A stretch of 37,472 nt of DNA from Actinomycetota bacterium (GTDB taxonomy: Bacteria; Actinomycetota; Aquicultoria; UBA3085; Oleimmundimicrobiaceae): assembly GCA_030017835.1 (NCBI GenBank), contig JASEGU010000013.1, positions 1 to 37,472 on the forward strand. The letters run 5' to 3'. The notes below the pieces were generated by a model. It was not told the origin of the DNA. It made no database searches and worked only from the letters and a program-made list of their open reading frames with translations. Shown piece by piece: positions 31,060-37,472 of the stretch (position 1 is the stretch's first letter; every line of letters starts with the position of its first letter). A program made the position numbers and the translations under genes.

Positions 31060-33098
31060 CTATATCAAGAGCGTCTCTATCTGATTTAAAACGGTGCTGG
31101 AGACAGCTCCCGAACCGCCGAAGATGAGAACCTTGTTGATGCTGGCCTTGTTGGTCGTAAGGAATGTCTTGGTCGCAAGGGAGCTGTCGATATTGGTCGG
31201 ATAGACCAGAACCATGACCGAACCGGCCCTCGCCCCATAGGCGCCGGCGCTCAAGGCATCGGGGTAATTCTCGCCGGTTACAACGATGGCCGTAGGCGTA
31301 CTGCCCATTCTTGACTTGACCTGTTCGGCAACCTTTTTGGCCGTTTCATAGCGGTCGGCCCCGCCCAGGCGGGTGATGGTATCGGCTCCGGTCTGGTCGA
31401 TGATCTGGCTTTTGACCGTATCGGAGATCGCGCCCACCCCGCCCAAGATGAAGCACTTGCTGGCACCAAGGCGGTTTATCTCCGCCTTGGTGTAGCTGTT
31501 CAAACTGGTCGACTCGGTAAGCAAGATGGGGCAGTCATAAGCGCCGGTCAAGGCGTCTGGATAACTGCCGCCAGTGGCTACGATGACGTATTCGGACGAT
31601 GCTATCCAGCCCTTCTACCTGACGGCCACGGCCGTCAGGTAGCGATCTGGTCCCTCAACACGCTCGGTCTTGCTGGTAGTGGCCTCTCCCACCGCAAAAT
31701 CGCTGAATGAAGTCATGCCGGTGGCCTGGGTGGCGGTAGAAGTTCTGGTGCCGACAGTAGGAGAAGTCCAGGTAGAACCGTCCCGTTTTGCTACGATAAA
31801 GTTGCTGGTGGTGGCCCCCGTATCGATATCGGCCGAGGTGAAGGTGAAGGTGGCCCCATAGTTATTGAAAGTGATACCGGAATTGGTCAACGTCCAGTAG
31901 GCGTTGACGTTCTTGCTGTCGTTGATGTTCGAACCTGTCAGGGTGCCGCTCGTAACTTTGGCCGTAAGGTTGCCGGCCGCTGTGACGCTGCCGAAGACAA
32001 CTGTAACCGGATTGTAGTTGCTCGCCGTACCCACCTCAAAGGTCCGGCTGACATTACTGCCAACAGCCACGTTCTTCTTTAATTTGCCATGGATGTATCT
32101 GCTCGCGTTTGCCCCCGATATCGAGCCGCCGGAGGCGATGATGACCTTATTTGTGCCGGTCGTTACCTTGCCGCTGGTCAGGGTGAGGTTATTGCTTACC
32201 GTTTCATCGCTGCTTATGGTCAAACCGTTTGAGTTGTTTAAGGTTAAATTATGGAAAGTAGTGGCGCCAGTCATCTTCTGAGCGCTTGAGCCATTGAGCG
32301 TGACCATGCCGGTTCCAGCCGTGAAGGTGCCACTGTTTGTCCAGGTTCCGGCAACGCTTAGGCCGTAGCTCGCGCCCGCCAAGGTGGTGCCGATTCCGAT
32401 GGTCAGATTGCCGCCCACCGTCGTGGCTTGCGCTAAAGTAGCATTGGCTGCGCCGCTTAGGCTCAGGTTGCCATTGATGGTGGAAAGGCCTGTCAGCGTC
32501 TTGGGGCCGGATCCGCTCAGAGTGAGGTTCCGATAGGTGACCGCTTTGACCGTCTGGGCGCCGCCGGCGGTATAGTTCACGGTATTGCCGGCGGCGGCGT
32601 TAAGGGTGGTGACTTCGCAAGTACCCCCAAGATTTAAGGTAGCGTTTGCCCCTTGGGTTAGGCTGCCTACCCGGTCAGATTGCCAGAGACGGTCAGCGCG
32701 CCGTTATTGGTCAAGGTGCCGTTAACGACGGAGTTTCCGGCGATGTTAAGCGTGCCGTTGTTGGTCAAGGTGCCGCCATTAACGACGAGGTTTCCGCTGA
32801 CGGTCAGAGTCTGGCTGGCCGAGATGACCAGTGTGCCGTTGTTGTTTACGGTCAAGTCGGTGATTTGATATGATCCGTCAACGGTTACCGTGTGGGTATC
32901 AAGTATGGTAACGTTATCTGCCGGGCTGGGAACGGCTGCTGTGTTCCATGTGGCCGCCACGCTCCAGTCGCCGGTAGCCTTGCTGTTGATGTCGGCCGCA
33001 AAAGCCGGATCGGCCAGAGAGACCAAAAGGCCCAAGGTCATGGCCGCCGTCAAAACCAGGCTTAACGCCTTCTGCTTAAATATCCTCTTTCTCATCAC
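31060..33098 (-). pseudogene. secreted surface protein with beta-strand repeats and two cell-wall-binding type 2 repeats, interrupted by a frameshift and a TAG
   Basis: Three consecutive pieces form one protein. The first (33098-32667, GTG or ATG start after GGAGG) has a signal peptide ending AFA, a GDWSVAATWN motif and Thr/Asn/Gly-rich beta repeats, and ends at TAG. The frame continues -1 from there as VGSLTQGANATLNLGGT and runs to 31615, so one G missing from a run of four G would explain the break. At 31615-31617 an in-frame TAG splits a wall-binding repeat (GPDRYLTAVAVR-stop-KGWIASSEYVIVATGG). The frame then continues to 31060 with a second repeat (LGGADRYETAKKVAEQV). TAG is an ordinary stop in other genes here, so recoding is unlikely. 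It is either a decayed gene or one with sequence errors. Confidence 0.8.
32701..32774 (-). repeat. 54-base imperfect tandem repeat in the surface-protein gene
   Basis: Bases 32701-32720 and 32755-32774 match at 19 of 20 positions, offset by 54 bases (18 codons). They encode GTLTNNG-type beta-strand repeats. A shorter related copy occurs near 32843. Confidence 0.7.
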
Positions 33099-33326: not shown

Positions 33327-34133
33327 TTAAACCGCTAGGTCTCGCCGGTTAAATCCCACAATGGCCAGGGCCAAAAAGAGGAGGGAGCAGACCAAGTAGA
33401 TAAGGATGCTCTTCAAGCTCAGGCCGTCCAAAAAAATGTCGGTTGCGTTGAAATAATAGAAGAGAGAGGCCGCCTCGTAAGGCTCGAGCTTATCGACCAG
33501 AGCGGCCAAGGTATCGGCCAAGTACATCATCACGGCTATGCTGCTCGTCAGGCCGAGGGTTAAACCCCGCTTGCCGGTAGCCGAGCCCAAGGCGAAAGCC
33601 AATGAAGAGAAGGAGAGACCGAGCAGAAAGAGACCCAAGCAGGCCTGGGCCAGCTTGAGGAGGTTGATATCGATCTTGAGCAGCAATAGGGGCAAGGACA
33701 TGCCGAGGTAGAACGAGGCCGAGATGACGATGAGACCAACCACTCCGGCCAAATACTTCTCCACCGCTACCCTCGTGCGGCCTATGGGATGGGAGAGCAA
33801 GAGGTCGATGGTGCCCTTCTCCTCCTCGCCGGCGATGACGCCCGCCCCAAAACCGACTGAGAAGAAGAGTATCAGTATCGGGCCCATCATGGAAAAGAGC
33901 TCGGCGTTCAAGAAGCCCTCTATCGTTGAGATGCTCAAAGCATCGCTCAAGTTGAAGGCCGCCTTCAGTTCGTCGGGCCAGACCTCCATGTAGTTGGAGA
34001 GCTCCAATGAAGCCTTCTCGACCGTGGGAAAGAGGGCCACGATGAAGGCACCGGTCAGGGCGAGCCCTATGCTCCACCAGATGATGGACTTCTTTCTTTC
34101 CCAGAGGGTCTTTAAGAAAATATTATGAAACAT
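33327..34133 (-). CDS. ABC-2 type transporter permease
   Basis: This is the membrane half of an exporter. The 268-residue protein has a basic N-terminus (FLKTLWERKKSIIWW), about six spans, a large extracytoplasmic loop after the first span (about 38-80) and the ABC-2 family motif GEEEKGTIDLLLSHPIGRTR before the third span. It overlaps the ATPase gene by 11 bases, so they are coupled. The substrate is unknown; lipid, polysaccharide or antibiotic export are all possible for this family. No dedicated terminator is evident. Confidence 0.85.
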   Translation of the reverse strand: MFHNIFLKTLWERKKSIIWWSIGLALTGAFIVALFPTVEKASLELSNYMEVWPDELKAAFNLSDALSISTIEGFLNAELFSMMGPILILFFSVGFGAGVIAGEEEKGTIDLLLSHPIGRTRVAVEKYLAGVVGLIVISASFYLGMSLPLLLLKIDINLLKLAQACLGLFLLGLSFSSLAFALGSATGKRGLTLGLTSSIAVMMYLADTLAALVDKLEPYEAASLFYYFNATDIFLDGLSLKSILIYLVCSLLFLALAIVGFNRRDLAV

Positions 34134-35028
34134 CGGCCTCTTCCTCTTCGTAGAAGTCCAAAAATATCTCCTCTAGGTTGGGCTCATGGGTGATGAGATT
34201 TACCACCTCAAACTGAGCGGCCCTCTTGATCAGCGGATCAAGCGAGCCCTTCACCTTGCAGCGCAAGGTTTTGTTATCTATCATCAAGTCTTGCACCCCG
34301 CCAACTCCCATGAAGTCTACCGTGGTTATAGGAGACGCGAAGTGTATCTCTAGGCTGCGCAGAGCCACGGCCTTTAGCTCGGATATCTCCTTTACGGTTA
34401 TGAGCCGCCCCTCGCGGATGACGCCGACGCGATCGCAGATCTTCTCCACCTCGGGCATGATGTGGGATGATAAGAAGACCGTTCGCCCCTTTCGCTTGAA
34501 TTCGCTTATCATGCGGTAGAACTCGTGCTGGACCAAGGGGTCGAGTCCTTTGGTCGGCTCATCCAAGATGAGAAGTCTGGGACTATTCATGAAGGCTTGG
34601 ACGAGCCCAAGCTTCTGTTTGTTCCCGCTGGAATAGGCGCCTATCCGGCGGGTGATATCCAGATCCAGACGCTCGGCCAGTTCATTCACGTAAGCCCAAT
34701 CAACCCCGCCCCTAAGACGGCCAAAGTAAATGATGAGATCTTTGGCCGTCATCTCTTCGTAAAGGGCAAGTTCGCCAGGGACATAGCCGATCTCATTTCG
34801 GGCTTGAAGCCCCTCTGTGTTCACGTCAAAGCCGAATATGGTGGCGCTGCCTATCATCGGCCGGATGAGATCGAGAAGAAGACGGATGGTGGTGCTTTTG
34901 CCCGCTCCATTCGGCCCCAAATAGCCGAATACTTCACCAGACAGGACTTCCAGGTTGACATCGATTATCCCGCGAGTCTTGCCGTAATATTTGGTCAGGT
35001 TGGTGGTCTTGATAACCGCTTGGCTCAT
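34123..35028 (-). CDS. ABC-2 type transporter ATPase
   Basis: This is the ATPase partner of the downstream permease. Walker A is GPNGAGKST, the signature is YSSGNKQKLGL (a common exporter variant of LSGGQ), Walker B is LLILDEP and the switch histidine is in SSHIMPEVE. The C-terminal extension of about 80 residues after the nucleotide-binding core is typical of CcmA/NatA-like exporters. It has 301 residues from an ATG with GGGGC upstream. In the 138-base upstream gap a weak TTGATT/TAGAAA pair could be a promoter. Substrate unknown. Confidence 0.88.
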   Translation of the reverse strand: MSQAVIKTTNLTKYYGKTRGIIDVNLEVLSGEVFGYLGPNGAGKSTTIRLLLDLIRPMIGSATIFGFDVNTEGLQARNEIGYVPGELALYEEMTAKDLIIYFGRLRGGVDWAYVNELAERLDLDITRRIGAYSSGNKQKLGLVQAFMNSPRLLILDEPTKGLDPLVQHEFYRMISEFKRKGRTVFLSSHIMPEVEKICDRVGVIREGRLITVKEISELKAVALRSLEIHFASPITTVDFMGVGGVQDLMIDNKTLRCKVKGSLDPLIKRAAQFEVVNLITHEPNLEEIFLDFYEEEEADVS

Positions 35029-35166: not shown

Positions 35167-37472
35167 TTATGTCGACCGTTCTTCAGGGCTTAATTGAAAG
35201 AATGATTTGGGATCGGTTTGCAGCCGATAGAGGGTCTCTGCCTCCTCGGCCGATAAGGCCTGCCGATATATTCTTATCTCATCAAGCGATCCCTTCCAAA
35301 GTGCAAAATCTCTACCTCCAAAAGTTAAAGGATTGTGGTTATTGAGAAGTTCGCCTTTGAGAGAAGCTTGGTCTGCAAAGCGGCCATCCTTATATGCCCT
35401 GATCATCTCCCCATCATAAGAGAAAACTAGGTGGGTATACTTGGCCGCCGGGACGCTTCCAAGGCTCAGATCCAAAGAGTCACTTAAGCCATTATCCCCG
35501 GTCATTTTGAAAGAGAAATCTCGACCTCCGGATTTGGCGATCAATGAGATTGGCACCCTGTTTGATAGGGGATGATATTGCTCAAGCAGAACGCGCCCAT
35601 CCGACCAGGCGTCGGGTTTGAGATAGAGCTCTATTGTGAACTTTTCGCTAAGCTCCATCGCCTTCTGGTAATCGGAATAGGTAACCACATCTATCTGGGA
35701 AGATTTTGATTTCAAATAATCGCTGACCTCTTTGAAGTTGGAGGTCAAATACCTGGTGGAGAGATCGGCCTTTTCGTCTACGATCTGGTGAAAGGTGAAA
35801 TTGATGAAGGATCCCTTTTCAATCGCCTCATCTATAGCTTTCTTGATGGAAGCGACCGACGTGGTGTTGGTGACGTAAAATCCCTTAACGAGATATTTTA
35901 GATCTCCAGAGGGCAATATGTTTGGCTGAAAGCTTCCGTCCTTTGTGGTCCTTGCCATTTCATGTCTTTCGGCCACCGTAACGATAACCCGCTCATCGTA
36001 GAGGCCGTATGGATAGGCGAAAAACTTCGCCGACTCTTTGAATCCGTTTCTTGCCAGCCAATCGTAACCCTCATTGATGTTTGATGCCAAAGCCGAAGGG
36101 CTAAGCGAGGTTAATTGGGGATGATTTTTGGTGTGGTTGGAGATATCCCAGCCGAAGTCTTTCATCTCTTTTAATTCGTCCTTGCTCATATGGGCACCGC
36201 CGCCGACATAATCGGTGACGATGAAGGCAACCCCTTTTTGACCATTGGCTTTCATGATGGGAAAGGCCTTCTCTTTGACCCCGTCGCAACCATCGTCGAA
36301 CGTTATGGCCGCCTTGGCTCTCGATTTATAATTAATTTTAAGATCATCAAAGCTTACGCTGCTGCTCTGACTCGAAGTTGATTTGCAAGCGACCCTGAGG
36401 GCGACCATTTGGCTATCCCAGCTCTCTTTGGCACTCGAGGTAAAGTCCCCCCCCCGCCCGAGCAAGAGATGATTCCAGCCTTCATTTAGAGCGGATGCGG
36501 GGATAGTCGCGCTCAAAGATTTTGAGAAGTTTTCGGTGGATGAAAGGCTCAAAGCGAGCGAGCGTAGACTCTCCAAATTATAGACATAGACCCAGATGCT
36601 CATGTTGCTGGCGCCCTTCGAGGCGAGGCTTATTTTTTTATCCAAATAGGCTAGGTTACCCCCTGATGAGGTCAGCTTTAAAGAGGCCTTTCCTTGCAAG
36701 AGGTTGGCGGTATCCAAGGCTTGACTGGCCATCTTGCCGCCCACCGACCAGTTTGAGGTGGTTTCAAAGCCCTCTAGGGGCGTGCCGTTCTTTTCTATAA
36801 GTCCGCCGTCCATTAGGGATAGGGATGAATCTGGGCCGAGGTTGAGCAGAGACGCCTCTCCGTCAAAATACTTGGCTAGGCCAAGCCCACCAGATACCGT
36901 CTTTGGGCCGCCTTTTCCGCTTGTTAAGTCGGGCAAATTCATGTGATCGACCATTTTCTGCCCTGCGGCCAAGAGGCCCTTGCTGAACTGATCGGCGCAA
37001 TTGGGATTGGCATAATATAATAGAAATTTTGGGTTTACCGAGCTTACCGGGCCCAATTTCAACCAGGCCGTCAGGCTTCCCGTCTTTGGGTCATACGCCT
37101 CTATCTCGTGAGCCAGCTTGCCTCCCTTTGAGTCAAGAAAGAGAAGATCGCCGCCGTCATCGGTGGCGACATGACCGCCGAAGTTGACCGACCTCAAGTT
37201 CAAGTCGGATAACTCTATCGGCAGCAGCAGACCGGAATTGAAGCCCGTTATTTTCTTAAGATCGAGAATTATGCCCATCCGATGCTTCCAGCCTTTGCCA
37301 TGCCAGGCTATGGGATCCGACTGGGCGGCCGATTTGAACGAGAGCGTAAGTGGCAGGGTTAGGGAGACGATTGTCAAGAGGGCGATGAGGGGTTTAACCT
37401 CTTTTCTACTTAAGATTTTCGAGTCGCAAAGAGCGCTTAACTTGACTTTAACGGCAGAGGCTGCTCTTTTTA
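35167..37472 (-). CDS. secreted polysaccharide deacetylase-like protein: DUF2341, LamG, CBM-like and NodB modules (5' end beyond the window)
   Basis: Residue numbers count from TTG 37377. A hydrophobic leader (LTIVSLTLPLTLSF) precedes a DUF2341-like domain (about 30-130, HRMGIILDL...LLYYANPN). A LamG-like opening (YFDGEASLLNLGPDSSLSLMDG, about 170-191) is followed by a carbohydrate-binding-like jelly roll (about 203-350) and a NodB deacetylase domain (about 355-570) with TFDDG (D361, D362), NHTKNH (H415, H419) and FAYPYG. Residues 579-715 continue the LamG domain (FTIELYLKPD, GSLDEIRIYRQALS). The frame remains open to the right edge with SRKEVKP before the hydrophobic core and no other start codon, so the true start probably lies outside the window. 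It should hydrolyse N-acetyl groups of a surface glycan; the exact substrate is unknown. Confidence 0.85.
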   Translation of the reverse strand, partial: KRAASAVKVKLSALCDSKILSRKEVKPLIALLTIVSLTLPLTLSFKSAAQSDPIAWHGKGWKHRMGIILDLKKITGFNSGLLLPIELSDLNLRSVNFGGHVATDDGGDLLFLDSKGGKLAHEIEAYDPKTGSLTAWLKLGPVSSVNPKFLLYYANPNCADQFSKGLLAAGQKMVDHMNLPDLTSGKGGPKTVSGGLGLAKYFDGEASLLNLGPDSSLSLMDGGLIEKNGTPLEGFETTSNWSVGGKMASQALDTANLLQGKASLKLTSSGGNLAYLDKKISLASKGASNMSIWVYVYNLESLRSLALSLSSTENFSKSLSATIPASALNEGWNHLLLGRGGDFTSSAKESWDSQMVALRVACKSTSSQSSSVSFDDLKINYKSRAKAAITFDDGCDGVKEKAFPIMKANGQKGVAFIVTDYVGGGAHMSKDELKEMKDFGWDISNHTKNHPQLTSLSPSALASNINEGYDWLARNGFKESAKFFAYPYGLYDERVIVTVAERHEMARTTKDGSFQPNILPSGDLKYLVKGFYVTNTTSVASIKKAIDEAIEKGSFINFTFHQIVDEKADLSTRYLTSNFKEVSDYLKSKSSQIDVVTYSDYQKAMELSEKFTIELYLKPDAWSDGRVLLEQYHPLSNRVPISLIAKSGGRDFSFKMTGDNGLSDSLDLSLGSVPAAKYTHLVFSYDGEMIRAYKDGRFADQASLKGELLNNHNPLTFGGRDFALWKGSLDEIRIYRQALSAEEAETLYRLQTDPKSFFQLSPEERST

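Follow-up and report, generated by a model that had tools for sequence, protein, structure and literature searches.

The window, by which we mean the whole analyzed stretch of 37,472 nucleotides, ends within a gene (35167..37472, - strand) whose open frame, together with the architecture of a paralogue described below, defines a predicted secreted protein of the order DUF2341-LamG(N)-[CBM-NodB]-LamG(C). The 5' end of this gene is lost at the contig edge, position 37472. We observed no break in the reading frame (35167-37470, - strand), which comprises 767 aa when counted from the contig edge and 736 aa from a TTG start at 37377; residues are numbered from this TTG. A hydrophobic N-terminal segment, PLIALLTIVSLTLPLTLSFKSAA (37324..37401, - strand), reads as a probable signal peptide or signal anchor. 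The downstream neighbours, on the same strand, are an ABC transporter ATPase (34123..35028), with NCBIfam matches below the equivalog cut-offs, and a probable ABC-2-type permease (33327..34133), named by sequence reading and without an NCBIfam match. An ORF of 321 aa at 31615-32580 also had no NCBIfam match at 1e-10. The rest of the window is housekeeping DNA with amino-acid and tRNA-ligase genes such as leuA, pheT and thrS, and neither these genes nor the transporter carry any pointer to polysaccharide.

All the domains of the protein lie on the - strand. The DUF2341 region, residues 24-150 (36928..37308), was delimited with PF10102 and with the first domain match of a profile built on 61 homologues (i-E 4.3e-20). 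In the scan of the single protein, PF10102 matched residues 74-129 with 21.7 bits, slightly below the cut-off, and in the search of the whole genome it reached 25 bits, above the cut-off of 23.4, with 43.8 bits for the paralogue. This domain precedes LamG, as in DUF2341-LamG proteins. The N-terminal part of LamG, about residues 160-191 (36805..36900, ending in FDGEASLLNLGPDSSLSLMDG), was placed by alignment to the FDGxxDYxxx strand of the 61 homologues, none of which carries an insertion. It is followed by an insert of 385 aa, residues 192-576 (35650..36804), a phage-type CBM-deacetylase module assigned from its homologues (L060, L062-L065, L170-L172, phage G gp673 and HFTV1 gp31). Within it, residues 199-352 (36322..36783) form a galactose-binding-like jelly-roll CBM; no Pfam family matched there, and the assignment comes from a match of profile A5 to the HFTV1 turret head and from an all-beta AlphaFold model. 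Residues 353-571 (35665..36321) form a NodB/CE4 deacetylase domain, with matches to CE4 structures in the PDB and to Polysacc_deac_1 (PF01522, residues 353-472, E 1.7e-22). This domain has the DD, H-x3-H, YPxG and late His signatures of CE4 enzymes, located by alignment in FDDG 360-363 (D361 and D362; 36289..36300), NHTKNH 414-419 (H415 and H419, the expected metal ligands; 36121..36138), AYPYG 454-458 (36004..36018) and FTFHQIVD 527-534 (H530; 35776..35799). The larger, C-terminal part of LamG, residues 577-716 (35230..35649), was recovered as the second domain match of the 61-homologue profile (i-E 6.5e-17) and by Laminin_G_3 (PF13385, residues 573-712, E 6.8e-19), which covers only profile positions 13-149 of 151.

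We compared this truncated match with an uninserted relative from a genome of the same class (G008, gene L051:1-1044), in which the Pfam LamG match takes in the FDG strand, starting from profile position 1. Since the match in the window protein starts at position 13, the missing first strand is FDGEASLLNLG (171-181), located before the insert. A scan of viral contigs returned 79 loci with DUF2341-LamG relatives, and 61 sequences from these loci were aligned with the window protein, the insert being omitted. MAFFT had placed uninserted full-length homologues into the insert, and the rows were therefore split and anchored. The 61 homologues run continuously through the junction, from FDGxxDYxxx..SLxx to xxFTIxxWxKP, and both halves of the window protein match them column by column. 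The resulting profile matched the window protein on both sides of the insert. In the paralogue, it matched with positions 1-179 before the insert (i-E 1.1e-54) and resumed behind it to position 326 (i-E 1.9e-17). The set of Laminin_G_3 positions is thus complete, with 13-149 in the C-terminal part and the first strand, by alignment, in the N-terminal part, and the chain is interrupted by the 385-aa insert. Taken together, these comparisons show, at the level of sequence, that a single lectin-like LamG domain is divided between residues about 160-191 and residues 577-716. The first-pass annotation had proposed a domain-in-domain insertion in a continuous frame, in which about 385 residues with a jelly-roll CBM-like part and an intact NodB core separate the first LamG strand from the rest. 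The observation is confirmed, and its interpretation is largely supported by the profile, the alignment of both halves, the paralogue and the stand-alone occurrence of the insert in phages; the LamG limits, given there as 165-191 and 579-715, had to be corrected. Judged by sequence, residues 577-716 do not make a complete LamG, and residues 171-191 lie outside DUF2341. An intein-like element was also considered and set aside, as no splice-type ends were seen on reading of the junctions.

Two AlphaFold models were examined. In model 1, the CBM, the NodB domain and the C-terminal part of LamG were well predicted: the CBM was all-beta, mostly with pLDDT 75-96, and nine strands were present in the LamG C-terminal part. 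Residues 19-196 had pLDDT below 50, in a region where the alignment had no rows. Model 2 (mb8848a37ee7b), built on an alignment that presupposes the split, predicted strand 167-172 to be beta (pLDDT about 82-90); its LamG body was well modelled and matched sandwiches of the ConA type, pentraxin and PAPP-A among them. Most of the insert, for which this alignment had no rows, had pLDDT below 50. Neither model reached good confidence over the first strand, the insert and the LamG body at once; the two halves would form one sandwich closed around the insert.

DUF2341 and Laminin_G_3 each match exactly twice in the draft genome assembly (G000; 1.31 Mb, 74 contigs), and their matches coincide in the window gene and in a paralogue of 819 aa on contig 33 (L003:4404-6863). 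This paralogue has the same architecture in an equally open frame, a hydrophobic N-terminal segment at the matching place (by sequence reading) and an insert that, by the same boundaries, also measures 385 residues. The two proteins are 45% identical overall, with 59% in NodB, 41% in the CBM, 38% in the LamG C-terminal part and 0-14% in the linkers, and neither lacks the DD, H-x3-H, YPYG or late His motif. The two copies come out as sisters in a NodB tree, where the one other NodB of this genome that was included groups with ordinary bacterial ones; an origin of the insert as a copy of such resident NodB genes was rejected. Genes for a sugar transferase and a UDP-GlcNAc 2-epimerase-like protein are found close to the paralogue, which has cell-envelope polysaccharide-type genes on both sides (names by sequence reading). 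Also near it is a gene for a 957-aa protein (L003:155-3028) that repeats a unit of about 130 aa several times and whose C-terminal part reads like a copper-amine-oxidase-type stalk domain.

We then considered the relatives of the inserted module. Identities of 33-41% over about 375 aa were found to L060 and L062-L065. Every close relative is viral, save a protein from a Zixibacteria MAG (L060:4446-6170), whose module is 40% identical to the insert and is chained with other domains, unlike the window gene, without LamG or DUF2341. A contig scan with the full-length pair as query, with peptide patterns drawn from DUF2341 only, returned no relative, and a second contig scan returned the Zixibacteria protein and one distant NodB. 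Among 397 genomes of the phylum, with the best 2-4 candidates scored per genome, no second genome with the module was found. On viral contigs, the module lies within or beside phage structural genes: after a head-tail adaptor (L067), after a tape-measure gene (L064) and before neck and tail genes (L069). In cultured phages, it is present in Bacillus phage G gp673 (30% identity), and a more distant form occurs in minor tail proteins of Gordonia phages (annotated minor tail protein or 'glucosaminyl deacetylase', AnClar gp19); the CBM-CE4 module is C-terminal in gp673 and alone in the Gordonia proteins, and in neither is it embedded in another domain. One viral NodB domain (L066:2-1801), read in translation, has an interruption of its own, about 115 residues long, directly after H-x3-H.

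As a structural match, Foldseek against the PDB placed the HFTV1 turret head at rank 1 (E 1.1e-21). Positions 5-340 of 388 of the profile matched the same protein (8qpg_TC, E 9.9e-8), the only one among the PDB sequence matches listed to span both CBM and NodB. The turret head, on the virion surface, combines a galactose-binding-like with a deacetylase-like domain, and a role in the binding and modification of host glycans has been proposed for it (PMC12494034). The solved structure of gp31 (PDB 8QPG) and the insert share a galactose-binding-like domain joined directly to a polysaccharide deacetylase, with homology over both parts, at about 23% identity. In contrast to the window module, which sits in a bacterial LamG loop amid housekeeping DNA, with its paralogue among polysaccharide genes, gp31 stands alone as a virion protein and forms trimers on the turrets of the capsid. 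On viral contigs, too, the module exists as separate proteins of about 400 aa (L170-L172), likely encoded by phage structural genes, and their leaders YIKSDGTLVEGFE resemble the insert start LIEKNGTPLEGFE. The LamG loop therefore holds an almost complete phage-type CBM-CE4 protein.

The module has entered LamG elsewhere. On a viral contig (L065/L069, IMGVR_UViG_3300049914_000331), a CBM-NodB module likewise lies within LamG, but DUF2341 is lacking, the insertion is one loop earlier (FNSPSA | DYIDTG) and the module belongs to a separate branch of the module tree. L165 and L166 are LamG relatives of L065 without the module; an empty site was also searched for the L064 host protein and none was found. 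In the tree of 12 modules, the three LamG-embedded ones were not united, and a constrained single clade was rejected (p-AU 8.9e-5, with long branches present). The different loop and this rejection suggest that the embedding of the module in LamG likely arose at least twice independently. The DUF2341-LamG scaffold, in the domain order of the window gene and with a continuous LamG free of any inserted enzyme in the G008 protein and the 61 viral-contig homologues, carries other in-frame insertions at seven viral loci. They comprise, between DUF2341 and LamG, a GH43-like domain (L123) and a piece without family assignment (L117), and, inside DUF2341, a BNR_4 domain (L146), an F5/8C domain (L160), LamG domains (L106 and L139) and another piece without family assignment (L118). 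These are metagenome contigs, of which any single one could be chimeric; it is unlikely that the whole pattern is. In a further DUF2341 frame (L050:104-649, contig 181 of G014), the frame terminates in DRKSTRLNSSHTDISRMPSSA, which resembles a translated sequencing adapter, the contig end probably being an artefact.

Several other explanations of the window gene have to be weighed. Two of them would do away with the nesting. The protein could be a simple chain of DUF2341, CBM, NodB and a complete LamG, residues 160-191 being a linker or a part of DUF2341; Pfam alone does find LamG only at 573-712, and model 1 shows nine strands in this part. However, what the Pfam match is missing is exactly profile positions 1-12, which uninserted relatives carry on the FDG strand, this strand stands directly before FTIxxWxKP in the 61 homologues, and the profile match to the paralogue breaks off and restarts at one point, so that we regard a simple chain as very improbable. 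An assembly or binning artefact, joining unrelated reads in frame, could be suspected in a draft genome of 74 contigs with the gene at a contig edge, yet it is refuted by the paralogue: two copies diverged to 45% identity in one genome share the same junctions and an equal insert length, both with open frames, and the chance that they arose in this way is practically negligible.

Two further explanations accept the nesting and change its meaning. That the gene is a structural gene of a resident prophage, encoding a virion deacetylase and not a cellular surface protein, would fit the viral origin of the close module relatives, the Zixibacteria protein excepted, and the frequency of DUF2341-LamG in viral contigs; we nevertheless consider it improbable, given the polysaccharide-type genes on both sides of the paralogue, the housekeeping genes of the window and the hydrophobic secretion-type segment at the N-terminus of both proteins. 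The alternative that deserves somewhat more weight, although it too is unlikely, is a catalytically dead or binding-only module in a protein that acts as an adhesin. The presence of two binding-type domains, CBM and LamG, speaks for it, and attachment may be the main role of some virion relatives. Against it, both paralogues retain the DD, H-x3-H, YPYG and late His motifs, and NodB is their most conserved part (59% versus 38-45%).

We therefore retain, with reasonable confidence, the reading of the gene as a secreted DUF2341-LamG surface protein that carries a virus-type CBM-CE4 deacetylase in a LamG loop and edits surface or exported polysaccharide. In this lineage, a single insertion would have placed an almost entire CBM-CE4 deacetylase of virus type in the loop that follows the FDGxxDYxxx strand, and a duplication of insert and scaffold together would then have produced the window gene and its paralogue. 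LamG would still close around the insert, and the deacetylase would project from the loop with its carbohydrate-binding partner outside the cell, where it would most likely deacetylate a polysaccharide of the cell surface or one that is exported. Judged from sequence and gene context, the most likely function is that of a secreted surface deacetylase on a DUF2341-LamG scaffold, and the genes read as sugar transferase and UDP-GlcNAc 2-epimerase near the paralogue are in keeping with polysaccharide modification. The viral majority among the module relatives suggests a transfer from phage to bacterium, in collections that were unevenly searched. More speculatively, and on balance doubtful, DUF2341-LamG could be a general loop-insertion scaffold common to phages and bacteria, in which glycan modules (CE4, GH43-like, BNR, F5/8C, LamG) are repeatedly inserted in frame; the bacterial copies would then be captured phage deacetylases, now acting on the surface sugars of their own cell and perhaps masking phage receptors.

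Each of the components, CE4, LamG, DUF2341 and the CBM-CE4 virion module, is already known; the part that appears new is the embedding of this module in a LamG loop, twice over. The first-pass annotation had recognized the arrangement from no described family. In the open-licence literature we likewise found no description of a CBM-CE4 virion module embedded in a LamG loop, nor any mention of DUF2341 together with LamG; the arrangement is, however, not confined to one gene, as it recurs in the paralogue and, in another loop, in a viral contig. A plain annotation, with DUF2341, deacetylase and LamG in a row, conceals this nested architecture. Overall, these results connect a surface deacetylase of virus type with a bacterial scaffold that is predicted to be secreted, and indicate that LamG domains can accept an enzyme of 385 residues in different loops, likely on at least two independent occasions. 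To our knowledge, DUF2341 has no known function; seen as part of a carrier of inserted glycan enzymes, the DUF2341 family would acquire a testable role.
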